Shown piece after piece: positions 55,164 to 64,000 of a stretch of 64,000 bases of DNA (position 1 is its first letter; the number at the start of each line of letters is the position of its first letter). Origin of the DNA: Streptomyces sp. NBC_00341 (GTDB lineage Bacteria; Actinomycetota; Actinomycetes; Streptomycetales; Streptomycetaceae); the NCBI RefSeq assembly GCF_041435055.1, contig NZ_CP108002.1:8711323-8775322 (forward strand), written 5' to 3'. Under the pieces are notes generated by a model that searched no databases, was not told where the DNA came from, and saw only the letters and a list, made by a program, of their open reading frames with translations. A program made the position numbers and the translations under genes.

Positions 55164-56153
55164 TCACCGGCAGTGGTCGGCCAGGGACAGCAGGAGATGG
55201 GCGGACTCCGGCCGCAGATGGTCCGAGTGGGCGCCCGCGGGTCCGTGCCCGCGGACGAACACCTCGCTCGCGTCGACGCTGACGAACCGGTGGTCGAGTG
55301 CCGCCAGGGGATACGCTTCCCCAGGCGGCAGCATACGGATCGCCGAGACCGGCGCGGGCGCGGTGCCGATCCCGGAGTGGCCGATGCCCGCGCGTTTCTC
55401 CGCGCGCAGGTGCCAGAAGCCGTTGGCGCGGTCGTGCCGCGAGTATGTCGCCACGACCGGGCCACGCAAGGGCGCTTCGCCGAGCGCGGTGAACATCGAC
55501 GCGAAGGCGTCGCGCGGTGCCGCCATCTGCAACAGCAGCATCGAGTCCGCAGTGAACGGCCGCCCCGCCGGCTCCGAAGTGTTCCAGCCGAGTGTGAGCG
55601 GCGGGTCGGCCGCCCACTGCACGGCCTCGCACAGGAAACGGCAGCCGAAGGAGTGCCCGACCAGGTGCAGATACTGCCCTTCGCGGTTGGCGAGCACGGG
55701 CGGCGCGGCCGGGTCGGCCCGGTGCGAGTCCACGTAACCGAGCAGCCGCCCGATGACCCTGGCGGCATGTCCCTCCGTACTCATGGCGTGCGCCCGGTCT
55801 CGGATACGGCGGTAGCCACTGAGGGACGGCAGGGAGCGGGACGGCCAGCGGACCAGGACGGTCCAGGGACGCCAGGGCGTCAGCCGGGGGTACCGCTCGG
55901 AGTCGTGCTGGGCGTCCGCAAGCGCGAGCAGCCGTTGGACGGCGTCGAGCGCGGACTCGGGGCTGGTCTGCCAGCCGTGTGCGTAGACGAGCAGGTCGGT
56001 GGCCCATGCGGGCGGGCATAGCGTCTCGGCGAAGTAGTCGGCGAGATGGTTCGCGGGGACGGGGCGGGGGCCGACGGGGGTCTCTTCGAGAAGCCAACCG
56101 TCGGAGCCGAGGTCTACGACGTGGATGTCGCCAGGTACGTCGGCGAGGCTCAT
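55164..56153 (-). CDS. Alpha/beta-hydrolase (esterase/lipase-like), third gene of the STAND-CHAT operon
   Basis: 329 residues from ATG 56153, which overlaps the CHAT stop by ATGA. An alpha/beta-hydrolase fold is indicated by the oxyanion-hole segment LLVYAHGWQ (residues 54-62) and the nucleophile elbow LVGHSFG with Ser168. A candidate acid and His lie in the C-terminal third (for example ATYSRHDRAN, LDHRFV). The insert between the first strand and the elbow is long (about 100 residues), as in serine esterases with lids. No signal peptide or membrane helix. Its tight coupling to a CHAT protease and a STAND NTPase suggests it is the effector, or a substrate, of the protease; the chemistry could be lipid, ester or peptide hydrolysis. 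I know of no described system with exactly this trio, but I could not search. Confidence 0.75.
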   Translation of the reverse strand: MSLADVPGDIHVVDLGSDGWLLEETPVGPRPVPANHLADYFAETLCPPAWATDLLVYAHGWQTSPESALDAVQRLLALADAQHDSERYPRLTPWRPWTVLVRWPSRSLPSLSGYRRIRDRAHAMSTEGHAARVIGRLLGYVDSHRADPAAPPVLANREGQYLHLVGHSFGCRFLCEAVQWAADPPLTLGWNTSEPAGRPFTADSMLLLQMAAPRDAFASMFTALGEAPLRGPVVATYSRHDRANGFWHLRAEKRAGIGHSGIGTAPAPVSAIRMLPPGEAYPLAALDHRFVSVDASEVFVRGHGPAGAHSDHLRPESAHLLLSLADHCR

Positions 56154-57457
56154 GAGGTGGCCTCGACGGGCTCAGCCTTTACCAGGCGGGCGTCCATGCC
56201 GCAGTGCAGGGCGTAGGCGAAGCCCAGCGGGTTGTGCAGGCTGTCGGCGAAGTACCGGGCCACGGCGTGGGCGACCGCGCCCGCAGATTCGCCGCTGTTC
56301 AGGTAGCGGCCGAGGAACTCCAAGGCGTACTCCGCCGCGAAGACCTGGGGCATCTCTATCTGCGGTCCCAGGATGCCGCGCGCGCCGGTCTCGATGAGGG
56401 CGCGCCCGAAGTAGGCGAGGTCGGCGTCGCTGTTGCCGGGGATGCCGGCGTAGCAGGCATTGAGGAGGACGAAGGGGTGGAACGGGGCGCAGTCGCGGCG
56501 GGCTGGGCGGTGCTCGCGGACCGTGTAGGCATCAATGGCAAGCTTGTCCTCCAACTTCACCACGAGATATGGCGGTTCGGTATCGGCCGACTCGAATTCG
56601 CCATGGCACCAGAAGTACATCAGCTGCTCATCGAGCGTCGGGTCCGCGAGAGCCCGCACGAACTCCCTGCGGGTCGTCCGCTCGGCCAGCGTGCCGCCCC
56701 GGGCGAGGACCGCCTTCACATCAGTGGCCCGGGTTCTGCCGCGTGGATCCACGCCGGTGTCGTGGTTGAGGCTCACGGCTGGCACGGCGGGCGGCGGGTG
56801 CTCGCGTCCGTCGGCGATCATCGCGTAGTAACCGCCGGTCTGCTCGATCCGGTGGCGGTGTCCAAGGAAGCGGTGGAAAACCCCCGCGAGCCCAGGCTCA
56901 TCCGTCGCGTCGGGCGGCAGGCACAGCATCGGCCACGGCACGAAGAGGTCCGAATCGAATCGGACGCGCAGCGGTTTCTCCGCGCACAGTGCCTCGGTGA
57001 GGAAGGCACGGAAGAGTCCGACGTCCTGGCTCTTCCCGCCGAGCAGGACGTCGAAGAGCAAATGGGTTCCGTATCCGGCGAGTTCCGACACCGTGGCCAG
57101 CAGTTCGTCCTGCGGCTCGCTTGTCAGGTCGACTAGCGTGGCGTAAGGGAAGTCCGGGCGGCCGGGCGCGGGACGCCGCGACTCGTCGAGCGGTTGTACG
57201 GCGACGAACTCCTCCTTCCACCGACGGCGCAGCCGCCCGGTCACGTGCCGTGCTTCCGAGGGCTTCACCTCCAGAAAGGCTCGGTGCTCGGTGCCGCTCA
57301 GCGCCGGCACTGCAGGGCCGTACATCCGGGCCAGGATGCGGTCGTCGCCGCGTACGTCGAGCACGATGACCAAGTCGGGTGGCGCTACCTGTTGGGGGAG
57401 CCGGGTGAAGCCGAGGCTCGGGTCCTGGACGACATGGACGGGGAGTTCACGGGCCAC
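56150..57457 (-). CDS. CHAT-domain caspase-like protease
   Basis: 435 residues from GTG 57457, four bases past the STAND stop; longer upstream frames are only Pro/Arg-rich read-through. The N-terminal ~190 residues (PPDLVIVLDVRGDDRI, FLEVKPSEARHVTGRLRRRW and LLFDVLLGGKSQDVGLFRAFL) look like the helper region that precedes many CHAT domains. The C-terminal half is a CHAT (caspase HetF-associated with TPRs) protease with both catalytic residues: His285 in YFWCHGEFE and Cys335 in VLLNACYAG. ILGPQIEMPQVFAAEYALEFL and ALHCGMDARL complete the fold. CHAT proteases cleave partner proteins after activation by TPR/STAND regulators or type III CRISPR complexes. The dyad is intact, so activity is expected. 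It is the middle gene of a coupled operon. Confidence 0.85.
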   Translation of the reverse strand: MARELPVHVVQDPSLGFTRLPQQVAPPDLVIVLDVRGDDRILARMYGPAVPALSGTEHRAFLEVKPSEARHVTGRLRRRWKEEFVAVQPLDESRRPAPGRPDFPYATLVDLTSEPQDELLATVSELAGYGTHLLFDVLLGGKSQDVGLFRAFLTEALCAEKPLRVRFDSDLFVPWPMLCLPPDATDEPGLAGVFHRFLGHRHRIEQTGGYYAMIADGREHPPPAVPAVSLNHDTGVDPRGRTRATDVKAVLARGGTLAERTTRREFVRALADPTLDEQLMYFWCHGEFESADTEPPYLVVKLEDKLAIDAYTVREHRPARRDCAPFHPFVLLNACYAGIPGNSDADLAYFGRALIETGARGILGPQIEMPQVFAAEYALEFLGRYLNSGESAGAVAHAVARYFADSLHNPLGFAYALHCGMDARLVKAEPVEATS

Positions 57458-57461
57458 GGGG

Positions 57462-59927
57462 TCAGGCCCCCTGTGCGAAGGCGGGAGTGGGCATGGGCTG
57501 CGGGGCGGCCGAGACGGGAGCGGTGCCGGTGGTGCCGATGACCTCGATCTCCGTCTCCACCTGTTGGAGCACCGAGTTGGATTCGGCGTCCTCGATGGTA
57601 AAGCGGATGCGGTGGCGGCCCGGCTGATACGGGGTGAAACGGAAGAGGGCGGTTCCGTTGACCGGCACGGAGTGCGTCGGGTCGACGTCGGCATGGGTCA
57701 ACGGGGTTGCCCACGCGGTCAGCGGTGGCAGGAGTTCCTCCGACGTAGCCCCGGAGTACTCGCGGCCGGGCTCGACTCGCAGCACGATGCGGGCCTCTCC
57801 TCCAGTGGCGGGAGAGTCGTCGAGGAGGGCGAGACGGACGAAGGCGGCGGGAGACACCTCACCCGGCGGGGCGCCGTCCGGCGAGGCGGCCGTTTCTGGG
57901 AGGAGGTGGCGGACCATGAGCGGGATGGTGTCGAAATCGTCCCACTCCATGTTCTTCAGGACGGGGCGCGGATAGCAACTCGTGAGGGCTCGGACTGCCC
58001 GCGCCCCGCGGCTGGAGCCAGGACCGTCGCGCACGACCGCCACCCACTGCACGCCCGCAGTGTCGTCGAGCGCCTCGAAGCGCGATTGAGCCTCGTCGAG
58101 CTGCGCACGATCGGCGCCGGCCCGGCCTGGACCCTGCAGGAGCAGGGTCCAGGCCGGGCCGTTTAGGCATCCGGTTTCATCGAAGGCGTCCAGGACCCGG
58201 CGGAGTGCTGCCGTGCGGTCGCCCTTCGTCAGCCACGCGAGGTGGTGCCGGGTCCAGGCGATACCCAGCCGGTCCGGCACGCTCTCGAAGAGACGCAACG
58301 TCTGGAGCAGCACATGCGCCGCCGAACCCGGCAAGTCCGCGTCCGCGTACGCCACCCCCTGGAGCAGAGTCGCCCAGGCCTCCCCCCGTACGTCGCCGTG
58401 CTCCCGGTGGGCCAAGGGCGTGGCCTTGAGCTCCAGCATCACTTCCGTTCGGGCGCCGTTCAGCAGGAGTTCGGCCCTGCACAGTTCGGTGCTCGTCCAG
58501 GCCGCTCCCACCACGTCGCCGACATCGCGGAACGCGAACCTCGCCGTCTCGAACCGTTTGAGCGCCTCCTCCGGGTCGCCGCACATCAGCCGCCACCGCC
58601 CGTAGTGGAAGACGGCCCAGGCCTCGCCGCGGCGGTCGCCATGCACCTGGTGGGTCTCGATCGCGCGCCGCAGCAGTCGGCCAACCTCGCGCAGCTCGCC
58701 GCGGTCGGTGCGGATCGAGGCTCGGGTGTGCAGAGCCCAGCCGTCCGGTAAGTCGGCGGGGAGGGCGTCGAGGGGGACCTCGGCAGTGTCCAGTTGTCCC
58801 ATGTGGTGTCGGGCCAGGGCGAGTTCGCGGATGGCGTCTGGGGTGTCGATGCCGGCCAGCGCCTCGGCCGCGGTCTGTGGCTGTCCGGTCTGCCGGACGG
58901 CGGCAGCCAGCGGAACCCTCAGGATGTCCCGGTCGTAGGCCGCATGGCCCAGCCCGGCCCGCAGCATCAGCAGCGGGAGCAGGGCGCCTTCGCCGACTAG
59001 CTGGTGCGCCAGCCATGTGGTGAATTCACGGGAGTTCGCCTCGCGGGACCGGCACAGACGTAGCGCGAGGTCGACGTAGGGCTCGGCAGCATCATCCAGT
59101 GCGCCCGGCTCACGCGGCACGGCCCGGGACAGTGCCGAGTCCAACCGCTGTGAATCGGACCGGAGCTCGTCGGGGGTGTGGTCGGGGACGAGCTGGGCGC
59201 GTAGGGCGGGGCGCAGTTCGTACCACCCGGGGCGGGCTTGTTGCAGCAGACCCTCCTGGTGCAGCCCCTCGACCGCCTCGCGCCACTCGGCGGGGGAGAG
59301 GTCCTCGACGGGCAACGTCATGTCCGGCGAGAACTCCGCGCCCTCCCAGACCGCCAGGGTGCGGAGCAGGGCAGGCGCCCGACGTGCCGTGGACAGCAGA
59401 TCCTGGTATGCCTCGGGCGTCAGGTCCACCTGGTGCTGCGTGACGTCCGAACGGTCGGAATTCGAAGTGCGGATCGCTCGGGTGGTGGTGGCGATCAGCA
59501 CACAACCCGTGTTTTCCAGCAGCCGAACGGCCGTCCGCAGGAGATCCTTGCCGTCGGTGTCCTCGGGCAGGTCGTCGAGCACGATCACTGCCGGGTGGGC
59601 CCGGAAGTGGTTCTGACAGGCCGCCGCGGCCAGGCCGGCCAGAACCTCGGGTGTGCTCAGGAGGGCCGGACCGAGTTCGGTCTGCGCAGCACCCGACGTC
59701 AGCAGCAGCCGCAGCACCAGTCGCTCCGGGGCGGCGGTCCGGACACCGAGCGAGAGCCAGTGGACGGGCAGGCTCAACGTCGCGCCGGCCTCATGGGCCA
59801 ACTCCTCTGCCAGCGCGGACCTACCGGACCCCGGCAGTCCGTACAGCACGAAGACCCTTCGCGTACCTCTCAGCCTCGACATCAGCCGACGTACCTGGAC
59901 GTCCCTATCCATCCACGACTCGCTCAT
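57462..59927 (-). CDS. STAND (NB-ARC-like) NTPase with TPR array
   Basis: 821 residues from ATG 59927 (GGGGTGAG upstream). The N-terminal NTPase has the P-loop GLPGSGRSAL (30-39) and Walker B AVIVLDDLP (Asp118/119), then CVLIATTTRAI as sensor 1. The invariant Walker A lysine is replaced by Arg36. A winged-helix-like segment (EWREAVEGLHQEGLLQQARPGWYEL) follows at about 215-245. From about 330 to 630 the chain is helical TPR-type repeats with alternating small residues (RRGEAWAVFHYGRWRL, VRGEAWATLLQGVAY, GPAWTLLLQGPGR). The last ~120 residues are a beta-rich domain (ARIVLRVEPGREY, TALFRFTPYQPGRHRIRFTIED) and a Pro/Ala tail. No separate effector domain is fused, so the effector activity must come from the CHAT and hydrolase genes that follow directly. 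Confidence 0.85.
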   Translation of the reverse strand: MSESWMDRDVQVRRLMSRLRGTRRVFVLYGLPGSGRSALAEELAHEAGATLSLPVHWLSLGVRTAAPERLVLRLLLTSGAAQTELGPALLSTPEVLAGLAAAACQNHFRAHPAVIVLDDLPEDTDGKDLLRTAVRLLENTGCVLIATTTRAIRTSNSDRSDVTQHQVDLTPEAYQDLLSTARRAPALLRTLAVWEGAEFSPDMTLPVEDLSPAEWREAVEGLHQEGLLQQARPGWYELRPALRAQLVPDHTPDELRSDSQRLDSALSRAVPREPGALDDAAEPYVDLALRLCRSREANSREFTTWLAHQLVGEGALLPLLMLRAGLGHAAYDRDILRVPLAAAVRQTGQPQTAAEALAGIDTPDAIRELALARHHMGQLDTAEVPLDALPADLPDGWALHTRASIRTDRGELREVGRLLRRAIETHQVHGDRRGEAWAVFHYGRWRLMCGDPEEALKRFETARFAFRDVGDVVGAAWTSTELCRAELLLNGARTEVMLELKATPLAHREHGDVRGEAWATLLQGVAYADADLPGSAAHVLLQTLRLFESVPDRLGIAWTRHHLAWLTKGDRTAALRRVLDAFDETGCLNGPAWTLLLQGPGRAGADRAQLDEAQSRFEALDDTAGVQWVAVVRDGPGSSRGARAVRALTSCYPRPVLKNMEWDDFDTIPLMVRHLLPETAASPDGAPPGEVSPAAFVRLALLDDSPATGGEARIVLRVEPGREYSGATSEELLPPLTAWATPLTHADVDPTHSVPVNGTALFRFTPYQPGRHRIRFTIEDAESNSVLQQVETEIEVIGTTGTAPVSAAPQPMPTPAFAQGA

Positions 59928-60787: not shown

Positions 60788-61075
60788 CTACTCGGTGTGG
60801 GTGGTGATGTGGATGTATTGGACGTCGAGTTGGTTGGCGATGTTGTCGAGGACGTCGGCGAGGGAGCGGACGGTCATGGGCTCAAGTCTGATTCCTGGTC
60901 CGTTATCCGTGGTCAGCACGGGGACGCCGTCCTGCGCGCCGGCTTGCCACGAGCGGGCGATGGACCGCAGGAGCGCGGTGACGTGTTCCGCGGGAACGGT
61001 CAAGCGCCCGTCGGGCTCGACGTTGACCTCAGGTGCCGCGAGCCGCGCTTCGTGTCCCTCATCCCGGGAACTCAT
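60788..61075 (-). CDS. Small protein coupled to the helicase (DUF6213-like)
   Basis: 95 residues from ATG 61075, which overlaps the helicase stop by ATGA. Hydrophilic, with VNVEPDGRLTVPAEHVTALLRSI, LTTDNGPGIRLEPMTVRSLADVL and NIANQLDVQYIHI. The pattern 'DG-LxVPAxxVxxLLR...LxDxLxxxAxxxDVxxI' reminds me of the short Streptomyces proteins grouped as DUF6213, but I cannot verify this. No catalytic motif. Translational coupling to the terminal helicase suggests a partner or regulatory role. Confidence 0.7.
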   Translation of the reverse strand: MSSRDEGHEARLAAPEVNVEPDGRLTVPAEHVTALLRSIARSWQAGAQDGVPVLTTDNGPGIRLEPMTVRSLADVLDNIANQLDVQYIHITTHTE

Positions 61076-63465
61076 GCTGCCCATTCGATTCCGAGTGCGG
61101 CGAGTGCGGTGAGTTTGTCGGCGGTCAACTTGTCCCGGCGGCTCTTCTGGTTCATGGTCCACACTCCGAGCTTGACGAGGTGTTCCTGTCCCTCTACGAC
61201 AATTGCCTCTACGTGAGCTCTGGGGACCTTCACAGAGCCCACGCGGGCCTTGTACTGCGCCAGGGCCGCTACGCCCTTCTCGAAGGCGCTCACGGGCGTC
61301 GTGGACGGATTCGCCGGCGCTTCCAGTTCTGCCGCGATCGGTACGACGCCGATGGCCTCCAGGCGCTCGCGCTGCCCGCCGACCAGGGCGGCCCACACCT
61401 CGGGCTTTCGCTGCTTGGCGAGCCACTTCCCGATGTCCATGCCGTGGACGGTGACCCCGGGTTCGATGTACGCGAGGATGCTTTCCTCCACGAGCATCTC
61501 GCGCACCACGGCGTAATGCCGCTGCCACTCCGGCGGCCACGACGGGTTCCAGTCCTCGTCGACCTCCCTGAGCGCCGTCTCCCACTCGGGGTGCCCCTCC
61601 AGCGCGCCGGGTCGCCGCAAATTCGCGAGCCACATCCCCAACGGCCGGTCCAGCATGGTCGCGGAGCGGGGCGCGCACAGCGTCCAGTGCTGGTCGTAGT
61701 ACGCCTTGGCGGCCTCCAGGTTCTCTTGGAACCGCTCAGCGGCGGGGTTCCAGACCATGCCGAGCTTCTCCAGCCGCTGGGCGCGCTGGCCGGTCATCTG
61801 CCCTGCCCCGTACGCCCGTCGCTGCTCCGCGACCCACTGCCCGAGCGGGTAGGCGCCCTCCTTGTGCCCGTATGGAACCCGGGCGTGCAGCTCCCGCTCC
61901 GCGAACTTCTTCAGCGACGCCCAGCCGCGCGCCCAGTCCTGCTTCTCCGTGTCGATCACGTTGAAGCTCACCCAGTCCGCGACCATCATCGGATCACGCG
62001 GAGCCGCAAAACGCAGCAGGAGACGGGATTCGTCCTCGCCTTCCTCGGGTGGCGGACCGATGTACTCGGACGACTGGACGACGTCCTTCTGAGGCTCCTG
62101 CGGAATCGCGAGCAATTCGATTGCCTCTTCATCATGAGCGCGCAGACCTTCAAGCACCTTCACCAAAGGCCGATACGAACCCGAGGTGAACATATCCTCC
62201 GGATCTTCACCGGGCTGGAGAAAAACCGGCACGATCAAAGAGGCCACCTTGCCCTGTCCGGGCTTCTGACGGAGCGCCCGGCCGATGGCCTGGACGATGT
62301 CGTGCGGAGCGCCCTTGGGGTCCAGGAGGGCCACCGAGTCCACCGCGCGGATGTCGACGCCCTCACCCAGGACCCGACAGTTCGACAGAACGGCCCGCAG
62401 CGCCGTGGCCCCGAAGCCACCCAGCACGCCCCGCCGGCGCTCCGGGACGTGCTCGCCGCACAGCCAGTCCGCCCAGATCCGGGCGGGGTACTTCTCCGGC
62501 TGGTCGGCATGCAGCTTTGCCGCCACCCGCTGAAGACCCTCCGCGTACGCCTGCGCCTCTATCGTCCGGTGGTGGAAGGTGATGCACGCCGACAGGTCGT
62601 GCTGCGCCATCGTGTGCAGCAGCGCGGCCTGGAGCGCCCCGAGCCGCTCACCACGGACCTTCTCGCTGTGCCGCTCCTCGCCCATCAGCCGCTCGGGCGT
62701 GACGACCGGGTCCTGGAGCTCCAGGACGATGATCTGGTACCGCGCCAACAGCTTCCGCGACACGGCCGACGCCAACGAGAGCTTGTAGAGGACCGGTCCG
62801 AAGACCTTCTCGTCGTCCATGGAGGCCGCCATCTCACGTGGCAGCGGGTCACGTACGCCTTCTGCGACCTCACGGTTCAGCCGCTCCTCCCAGATCCGCG
62901 GCGTAGCCGTCAGATACAGCCGCCGGTGCGAGGGGATGACGCCCTGGTTGTGGACGTCCGCCCACGCCTTACCCATCGAGCCACTGGTCCTGTGAGCCTC
63001 ATCGACCACCGTCAGGTCCATCAGGTCCAACTGCTGCCCGTAGGCGCCCTCGAACGCCTCCGCCAGGACACCCAGCGAGGCGTACGTCCCGAAGAGGGTC
63101 ACTGGCCCCGAGCCGTGCCAGAGAGCCAACTGCACAGGATTCGTGGTGGAGCGCACCTGCAGGCTCCACAGCTCCGGGTCGTCGGTGAGGCTGCACACCG
63201 CAACCGCCGGCCCCGTGTGCCCAGCCGAGCGCCACGCCTGCACCGTCTGGGTCAGAAGGTCCAGCGTCGGCACCAGGATGAGAATGCGCCCCTTGGGCAC
63301 AAGCCGCTTTGCCGACGCTGCGGCAATAATGGTCTTTCCCGTGCCACACGCGGCGTGTACCTGCCCGCGCAGGCCATTCACGGGGATACCGCCCGGCGGA
63401 ATATCGAAGCCCCGCACGATGGCGGCAACGGCCTCGATCTGGTGGTCACGCAACTTCACGGCCAT
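61072..63465 (-). CDS. DEAD/DEAH-box helicase with helicase-associated repeats (terminal helicase type)
   Basis: 797 residues from ATG 63465, chosen because AAGGAGAT precedes it; an upstream start would add 33 AT-rich, atypical codons. Superfamily 2 motifs: I (AACGTGKT, Lys44), II (DEAH, 155-158), III (LTATP, near 185), IV-VI (ACITFHHRT, CRVLGEGVDIRAVDSVALLDP, DIVQAIGRALRQK). The C-terminal third has several helicase-associated modules of about 65-70 residues with the pattern W...L..F......HARVP...G...LGQWVAEQRR...G.M...R...LEKLG..W. Helicase-like genes of this type (ttrA-like) are a known feature of Streptomyces chromosome and linear plasmid ends. Its position, 0.5 kb from a telomere-like palindrome array, fits that pattern. 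Role in telomere or conjugal transfer is family knowledge, not shown here. Confidence 0.9.
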   Translation of the reverse strand: MAVKLRDHQIEAVAAIVRGFDIPPGGIPVNGLRGQVHAACGTGKTIIAAASAKRLVPKGRILILVPTLDLLTQTVQAWRSAGHTGPAVAVCSLTDDPELWSLQVRSTTNPVQLALWHGSGPVTLFGTYASLGVLAEAFEGAYGQQLDLMDLTVVDEAHRTSGSMGKAWADVHNQGVIPSHRRLYLTATPRIWEERLNREVAEGVRDPLPREMAASMDDEKVFGPVLYKLSLASAVSRKLLARYQIIVLELQDPVVTPERLMGEERHSEKVRGERLGALQAALLHTMAQHDLSACITFHHRTIEAQAYAEGLQRVAAKLHADQPEKYPARIWADWLCGEHVPERRRGVLGGFGATALRAVLSNCRVLGEGVDIRAVDSVALLDPKGAPHDIVQAIGRALRQKPGQGKVASLIVPVFLQPGEDPEDMFTSGSYRPLVKVLEGLRAHDEEAIELLAIPQEPQKDVVQSSEYIGPPPEEGEDESRLLLRFAAPRDPMMVADWVSFNVIDTEKQDWARGWASLKKFAERELHARVPYGHKEGAYPLGQWVAEQRRAYGAGQMTGQRAQRLEKLGMVWNPAAERFQENLEAAKAYYDQHWTLCAPRSATMLDRPLGMWLANLRRPGALEGHPEWETALREVDEDWNPSWPPEWQRHYAVVREMLVEESILAYIEPGVTVHGMDIGKWLAKQRKPEVWAALVGGQRERLEAIGVVPIAAELEAPANPSTTPVSAFEKGVAALAQYKARVGSVKVPRAHVEAIVVEGQEHLVKLGVWTMNQKSRRDKLTADKLTALAALGIEWAA

Positions 63466-63564: not shown

Positions 63565-63836
63565 TACACAGGCACAACCCGCGATGCATCACCCGAGCGC
63601 CATGTATCACCCCCAGAGTGGTACATGACCGAATCTTACCCCGAAGCCTCGGTCGCCCTGCATGCCGGTAGGGTATTGGTGAGCTTGACCGGACGGGTTC
63701 GAGAGTGGGGGAGAGGGCAGGGTGGAGCGCAGCGGAACCCTTCACTCCGGCGCGCGCCGGCGCGACGGACCGTCACATCCATTACAAAGATGGGAGCCAG
63801 AAACCCCAAGCCCTACACAGGCCCGCACGCGATGCA
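63565..63836 (+). repeat. Imperfect direct repeat near the terminus (two copies)
   Basis: The first copy (63565-63588) begins TACACAGGC and ends CGCGATGCA; the second (63814-63836) begins TACACAGGC and ends CGCGATGCA with 5-6 different bases between. The two lie about 250 bases apart. The intervening sequence has no supported gene. Such repeats flank the subterminal part of some linear replicon ends. Confidence 0.5.
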
Positions 63837-63858
63837 CCTCCTCGTATAGCCAGCCCAG

Positions 63859-63997
63859 GTGATCGCGCAAGCGCGATCACTCCAATTCGCGCTTGCGCGG
63901 GTGGATTCCGCTTGCGGAATTCCATTCCCCCGCTTGCGGGGGAATCCGCCTTGCGCTTGCGCAAGGCGGATCACTCTGCAGCGGCTTGCCGCTGCAG
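63859..63997 (+). repeat. Array of six palindromes with a 2-nt centre, telomere-like
   Basis: Six perfect inverted repeats, each with a two-base centre: 63859-63880 (10-bp arms GTGATCGCGC, AA), 63888-63899 (5-bp arms, TT), 63905-63920 (7-bp arms ATTCCGC, TT), 63924-63945 (10-bp arms ATTCCCCCGC, TT), 63944-63971 (13-bp arms ATCCGCCTTGCGC, TT) and 63976-63997 (10-bp arms CTGCAGCGGC, TT). Five of six share the centre GC-TT-GC on this strand; the first reads GC-AA-GC. Closely packed palindromes able to fold as hairpins are the hallmark of Streptomyces telomere 3' overhangs. The archetypal telomere sequence (CCCGCGGAGCGGG...) is not present, so this would be a different telomere type. Confidence 0.75.
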
Positions 63998-64000
63998 TAC

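Follow-up and report, generated by a model that had tools for sequence, protein, structure and literature searches.

A row of CTTG-loop palindromes as the very probable right-hand telomere of a linear Streptomyces chromosome, most likely served by a plasmid-encoded Tap/Tpg pair

Introduction

What does a tight row of palindromes do at the very edge of a Streptomyces sequence and, if it forms a telomere, which terminal proteins would serve it? The question is raised by a 64,000-nucleotide stretch of DNA from Streptomyces sp. NBC_00341 (the whole of which we call 'the window'), corresponding to positions 8711323–8775322 on the + strand of contig NZ_CP108002.1 (hereafter C1). The array at its end is a member of the CTTG-loop class, which Tidjani et al. 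first described in 2020 from a handful of strains (PMC7205883). Our literature search, which was thin on subscription journals, found no account of CTTG telomeres beyond that paper, and nothing in print on the genus-wide spread, TT polarity or covariation of the class. With high confidence we identify the array as the right-hand telomere of a linear Streptomyces chromosome, a CTTG-loop telomere most likely served by a diverged Tap/Tpg pair that is encoded on a second contig, the plasmid C2.

Results

The array closes the chromosome contig

Base 64000 of the window is the last base of C1 (8775322 bases). The initial annotation had placed the end of the window at or very near a replicon end; the agreement is exact, the length of C1 being equal to the window's end coordinate, and no kilobases of coding sequence follow because the contig has no further sequence. 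Nor is the array dispersed internally in other chromosomes: 52 of the 55 places at which it was found in other genomes are within 135 bases of the contig end toward which it points. Together with its position on C1, this rules out an internal array.

The assembly contains two further contigs, C2 (255797 bases) and C3 (32033 bases). C2 carries an array of the C1 kind at both ends and C3 carries a different array at both ends. The two C2 ends match each other at 97% over 763 bases, so that the inverted copy at the other end, which the annotation had proposed looking for, is present for C2; the telomeres of C1 and C2 are 83–84% alike over ~210 bases. The left edge of C1 falls within a 206-codon open frame and has no array, the left chromosome end being absent from the assembly. 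Comparison of the first and last 20 kb of C1, from which the true left end is missing, gave a single internal match of ~1.2 kb at 80%.

The helicase gene that had been noted near the array is present at 61072–63465 on the − strand, reading away from the telomere. Its product matches four helicase-associated domains as well as ResIII, DEAD and Helicase_C, and we presume it to be ttrA-like; the start at 63465 is our own reading of the ribosome-binding site. A homologue adjoins the array in 25 of the 39 loci examined, several of which are too short or distant to tell, and no match to it was found in the last 1.8 kb of either C2 end. Further into the window, two overlapping frames at 56150–59927, one with a CHAT-domain match just under the Pfam cut-off and the other with AAA and TPR matches, are possibly an effector and sensor pair.

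Six palindromes with two-base centres

The array itself is real, with one adjustment to the six perfect palindromes first described: five are perfect (arms of at least 7 bases around a two-base centre) and a sixth has perfect arms of 5 bases, with TT at the centre of four of the five and of the sixth, and AA at the centre of the remaining one. All are given here on the + strand and numbered inward. Palindrome II, the outermost present (63976–63997), has arms of 10 bases and a TT centre, and by its likeness to the archetypal palindrome II (as described in PMC4513846) is the probable Tap-binding hairpin. It is followed by palindromes III (63944–63971; arms of 13, TT), IV (63924–63945; arms of 10, TT) and V (63905–63920; arms of 7, TT). 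Palindromes III and IV share two bases, as had been stated, and the stems of all four are supported by covariation (below). Palindrome VI (63888–63899; arms of 5, TT) has counterparts with 10-base arms at both C2 ends and is therefore a damaged copy, which in comparison with C2 has lost an outer arm as well as the spacer that separates it from palindrome V. Palindrome VII (63859–63880; arms of 10) is C2's innermost palindrome save for its centre, which is inverted (AA rather than TT on the 3′ strand); a template switch inside the hairpin, an idea drawn from PMC8794818, could have been the source of that inversion. The array is flanked on its inner side by a conserved subterminal stretch (63700–63858), with 67 of the 85 matching plasmid records covering at least 80% of 63700–64000, and on its outer side by a TAC junction (63998–64000), at which two relatives run on to complete the archetypal palindrome I.

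Five palindromes with arms of at least 7 bases and a two-base centre compare with a mean of 0.033 and a maximum of 2 in 5000 first-order Markov sequences (last 150 bases), which rules out chance as their source. The + strand has a predicted fold of −59.9 kcal/mol (shuffle mean −32.3, z −9.5), in which palindrome VI is paired with palindrome VII. The opposite strand folds equally well (−60.3, z −9.3), so that the energies do not favour the 3′ strand.

Loop polarity and stem covariation

Since the two strands are inseparable by energy, the polarity of the loops is itself evidence for use of a single strand. Of the 71 telomere sequences that we collected, this genome supplied three, other genomes 53 (from 55 places) and strain AW19M42 two contigs; the rest come from 12 of the 85 plasmid records, one of which was read at both ends. 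Two genomes with short, weak internal matches (G212 and G359, in both of which type I Tpg, defined below, is absent) were excluded from both the loop and the alignment sets. Among the 358 hairpins in these 71 sequences, the two-base centre on the 3′ strand is TT in 339, AA in 8 and something else in 11; with the closing pair included, the tips are CTTG in 317, TTTA in 21, CAAG in 7 and others in 13. A T-A closing pair goes with a TT centre in 21 of 23 hairpins. Within this genome, CTTG tips on the 3′ strand are found at five of the six hairpins in the window and at six of six at each C2 end. Stable DNA mini-hairpins include those with a two-base TT loop and a closing pair of C-G or T-A.

The stems also covary. 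In an alignment of 34 of the 71 sequences, chosen by layout, 60 pairs in six helices are paired in 96.6% of cells, a percentage that is inflated because the structure was drawn from the same aligned sequences; the 30 pairs that are changed on both sides are stronger evidence. The covariation score of 0.236 (0.078 for shuffled alignments) was reached by none of 500 shuffles, and pairing falls to 28–52% when the partners are offset by 1 to 3 columns. In a consensus fold computed without guidance, four of the six hairpins were retained and the remaining two were paired with each other.

The missing tip

The archetypal terminal sequence had been reported as absent. That is true of the 64000 bases, in which palindrome I (CCCGCGGAGCGGG) is not found, but probably only because the contig stops short. 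Palindrome I is complete at 24 of 70 related ends. A search of GTDB contigs for the palindrome II pattern gave three loci, and in both AW19M42 contigs palindrome II is preceded by CCCGCGGAGCGGGTAC, the archetypal palindrome I as found in SAP1. Nine of the 70 ends, including two of this genome, are exactly 12 nt short of the full palindrome I, and six of those nine, from five genomes, are GTAC ends; six further ends are 13 or 14 nt short by our own reading, and the remainder stop elsewhere in or beyond palindrome I, or begin with foldback or other sequence. Because relatives carry palindrome I outside the array, the C1 contig probably stops 12 nt short, which would place the true end ~12 nt past base 64000. 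At archetypal telomeres, Tap and Tpg alone are reported to copy ~13 nt, stopping where palindromes I and II meet, and palindromes II and III are reported as the ones bound by Tap (PMC4513846).

Two contigs in the set (G277:C130 and G060:C43) carry at their ends an inverted copy linked by palindrome I, a structure that could have arisen by folding of the 3′ end at palindrome I and self-primed extension, either in the cell or in library preparation.

Distribution and class membership

The array was matched in 39 of 391 other genomes of the genus (40 of 392 with this one) and in 85 plasmid records, all from Streptomyces; the two collections are not independent, since the AW19M42 relative uw30 is probably from the same genome as G063:C162 and other plasmids may likewise duplicate genomes. 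Three genomes (G031, G108 and G254) have single large contigs with the array at both ends. In another single-contig genome (G172), a CTTG array lies 20 kb inside (C1:20152–20306 of that genome), which is either a misjoin or a fused end. The ends of pS1D4-14.1 and of the S. dengpaensis plasmid match 97% of the query at 70.3% and 69.8% respectively, within ~25 bases of the end of each record. Tidjani et al. report that the S. dengpaensis plasmid has palindrome I, and describe compensatory changes for a different telomere sub-clade (PMC7205883).

The C1 right end gave no match to the SAP1 end at E ≤ 1e-3 and its centres are TT, by which the archetypal class was rejected; the Sg2247-type class was rejected for the C1 array on the lack of a match to the pSGZL and pSCAT ends. 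The description of the window's end as a foldback telomere of non-archetypal kind is thus supported by its contig-end position, by homology within the class and by its TT centres.

A diverged Tap/Tpg operon on C2

A telomere of this kind had been expected to need terminal proteins other than Tap and Tpg, an expectation that our results do not support: C2 encodes a diverged Tap-Tpg operon of a clade that tracks the telomere class. With the Tpg and Tap of the S. dengpaensis plasmid as queries, one full-length pair was found in the genome. The tap gene (C2:234021–236165) encodes 714 aa that are 80% identical to the S. dengpaensis plasmid Tap, and the adjacent tpg gene (C2:236170–236724) encodes 184 aa that are 77% identical to its Tpg. 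Both products pass the NCBIfam cut-offs (Tpg 265.3 against 90 bits, Tap 1111.9 against 600). There is also a partial Tpg-like match on C1, where the adjoining DNA reads N. Searches of solved structures gave no match to Tpg at E ≤ 1 and only weak matches to Tap (E of 0.12 or worse), mostly over the HTH.

Tpg matches at E ≤ 1e-10 are present in 292 of 392 genomes. We defined type I Tpg by a match at E ≤ 1e-60 (82 other genomes) and telomere-positive genomes by an array match at E ≤ 1e-6. Type I Tpg was then found in 35 of 36 telomere-positive genomes versus 47 of 355 others, in a comparison that ignores relatedness and plasmid co-transfer; with a telomere threshold of E ≤ 1e-3 the counts, which again ignore relatedness, are 37 of 39 versus 45 of 352. 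At E ≤ 1e-6, 47 of the 82 genomes with type I Tpg show no array, for which draft ends may be the explanation. The SAP1 end gave many short hits among the 392 genomes, and only those at E ≤ 1e-20 (16 genomes) were counted as archetypal; type I Tpg is present in three of these 16, a background rate that represents neither enrichment nor depletion (p = 1.0). Of the three plasmids that end at the same base as the array, those of NBC_00304 and NBC_01259 encode Tpgs 99% identical to that of C2, and that of NBC_00342 encodes none.

The C2 Tpg is 46–50% identical to eight Tpgs taken as representing the archetypal side, and type I Tpgs separate from the archetypal-side proteins in a midpoint-rooted tree of 46 rows, read without branch supports. 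Two of the 46 rows are the same gene; one genome (G380) was left out of the set, as was another (G075) that has a stop. The threonine at T114, described as the deoxynucleotidylated residue of Tpg (PMC3572947), has a threonine as its equivalent in all 46 aligned rows.

Sg2247-type telomeres and a candidate terminal-protein pair on C3

The ends of C3, a 32-kb linear plasmid, have GTA, GGA and GAA loops and an ACGACGC motif that is also found in pSGZL and pSCAT, two plasmids listed as Sg2247-type by Algora-Gallardo et al. 2021, who call the terminal proteins of that type elusive (PMC8743542). The pSGZL record (NZ_CP003988, our locus L169) is labelled circular despite starting with an Sg2247-type telomere. 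C3 also carries an unannotated two-gene operon on its − strand (L010; 4003–5361 and 3412–3999), in which a 195-aa protein is encoded directly after a 452-aa HTH protein. NCBIfam gave no relevant match to either protein, and a profile comparison of the small-protein family with Tpg (probability 35.7 over 54 columns in the HTH) did not establish homology.

The four plasmids with C3-like telomeres are the small protein's four best matches, in the same order. It is encoded by pSGZL (E 1e-62) and pSCAT (E 3e-55), both of which are without Tpg, and is absent from SAP1, pS1D4-14.1 and the S. dengpaensis plasmid, in which Tpg is present; SAP1 and pS1D4-14.1 give weak C3-protein matches (E ~1e-4), the latter inside its Tpg gene. 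Across the genus sample the family occurs in 147 of 392 genomes: 78 of 100 that lack Tpg and 68 of 291 that have it. At 20 contig ends from carriers of the family we counted 34 GNA-loop hairpins and no TT-loop hairpin. Ten of those 20 ends are without any GNA-loop hairpin, and of six further plasmids with a C3-type gene one has ACGACGC (NBC_01754, right end) and five are without it (not all read at both ends), so that the link between family and telomere is partial. Many of the 120 homologues listed come from S. albidoflavus, and for three of the 120 the locus tag ends in 00005, suggestive of a first gene. For the chromosome of S. albidoflavus J1074, Sg2247-type ends and no known terminal protein are reported (PMC8743542). 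We therefore regard the C3 pair as a candidate terminal-protein pair for the Sg2247 class, and it may correspond to the GtpB-GtpA family of S. griseus named in PMC7205883.

Discussion

By analogy with archetypal telomeres, for which the first step is established, replication from the centre of the chromosome would leave the + strand as a single-stranded 3′ overhang. That overhang would fold into a row of hairpins with two-base TT loops, closed as C-TT-G and sometimes as T-TT-A. The outer hairpins would then be bound by the diverged Tap from C2, which would keep the diverged Tpg in place at the 3′ end, and Tpg would prime synthesis from its T114-equivalent threonine, copy palindrome I and remain as the 5′ cap. 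Of these steps, folding of the single strand in the cell, binding by Tap and the covalent cap are inferred from sequence and precedent. The chromosome would also appear to depend for its ends on plasmid C2. There is a precedent for a plasmid-borne tap-tpg serving a chromosome: loss of pSCL4 from S. clavuligerus was reported to be accompanied by terminal deletions in five of five cured isolates and by circularisation in two (PMC8743545).

Three other explanations deserve consideration. The telomere might truly end at GTAC, in a subtype that has lost palindrome I, as the recurrence of the exact 12-nt shortfall, and of GTAC in six of those nine ends, would suggest. The two AW19M42 contigs, with an identical palindrome II, nevertheless have palindrome I in front of it, 24 of the 70 ends are complete, and shortfalls of 12 to 14 nt are also seen where palindrome II has another sequence. 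Loss of roughly the last dozen bases is common in nanopore reads, which is one guess at a cause that would fit the shortfall. On this balance we consider loss of palindrome I unlikely. It is also conceivable that the array is not the chromosome's telomere at all, but an array of terminator-like or integration type, or else a telomere of a plasmid misassembled onto the chromosome contig. The similarity of the C1 and C2 telomeres, the presence of a single chromosome end and the array inside the contig of G172 could be read in this way; however, the C1 copy differs from both C2 copies, the adjacent C1 helicase gene is unmatched near either C2 end, and the three single large contigs with the array at both ends also argue against it. 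We give this explanation very little weight, the least of the three.

The remaining alternative leaves the telomere in place and assigns it to the 195-aa and 452-aa pair of C3 in place of type I Tap/Tpg. The pair is encoded in the same genome, its family and Tpg have complementary distributions in the genus sample, and Tidjani et al. left open whether GtpAB-like proteins serve CTTG telomeres (PMC7205883). Yet the family is present in only 10 of the 36 telomere-positive genomes, as opposed to 35 of 36 for type I Tpg; it is absent from the published CTTG plasmids of S. dengpaensis and S1D4-14, the weak match in the latter being the one within its own Tpg gene; and the 20 contig ends from carriers of the family gave GNA-loop hairpins and no TT-loop hairpin. 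We regard service by the C3 pair as highly improbable, if slightly less so than the preceding explanation.

The best reading, in our view, combines a constant priming end, exchanged recognition hairpins, a matching Tap/Tpg clade and a plasmid-dependent chromosome. It leads to a broader proposal, on which we are evenly divided, that has two parts. Streptomyces telomeres may be modular in a lock-and-key sense, with the 13-nt priming end and the Tpg threonine held constant while the hairpin tips (Y-TT-R or GCA) and the Tap/Tpg clade are exchanged together; and two systems may operate in this one genome, the chromosome and C2 using CTTG telomeres with type I Tap/Tpg, and C3 using GNA-loop telomeres of Sg2247 type with the unannotated HTH protein pair. 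If that is correct, the C3 pair, already a candidate, would supply the terminal proteins that the Sg2247 class has been missing. The spread of the CTTG array, its covariation, its polarised loop and its association with one Tpg clade make loop recognition by Tap directly testable.

Algora-Gallardo et al. 2021 distinguish six telomere classes, none of which is named for CTTG loops (PMC8743542); of the six, the array was compared by sequence with two, archetypal (SAP1 end) and Sg2247-type, and the CTTG class could coincide with one of the SCP1, Sg13350, pRL1 and pRL2 types. The Sg2247-type telomere is, as described there, likewise a foldback hairpin array at a replicon end. Its three-base GNA loops and ACGACGC motif are unlike those of the C1 array, and it closes C3 of the same genome. 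With the archetypal (Sco) telomere there is more in common: palindrome I is identical in relatives of the array, and Tap and Tpg fall in the same NCBI families, whereas the array's centres are two-base TT and not GCA. The closest relatives are the CTTG telomeres of sub-clade I, represented by pS1D4-14.1 and the S. dengpaensis plasmid. In comparison with these, the C1 copy has one damaged and one inverted hairpin and a different palindrome II sequence, and the sole full-length Tap-Tpg pair found here is plasmid-borne. It shares with them CTTG loops, type I Tap-Tpg, occurrence on both chromosome and plasmids, and a homologous sequence across most of the last 300 bases.
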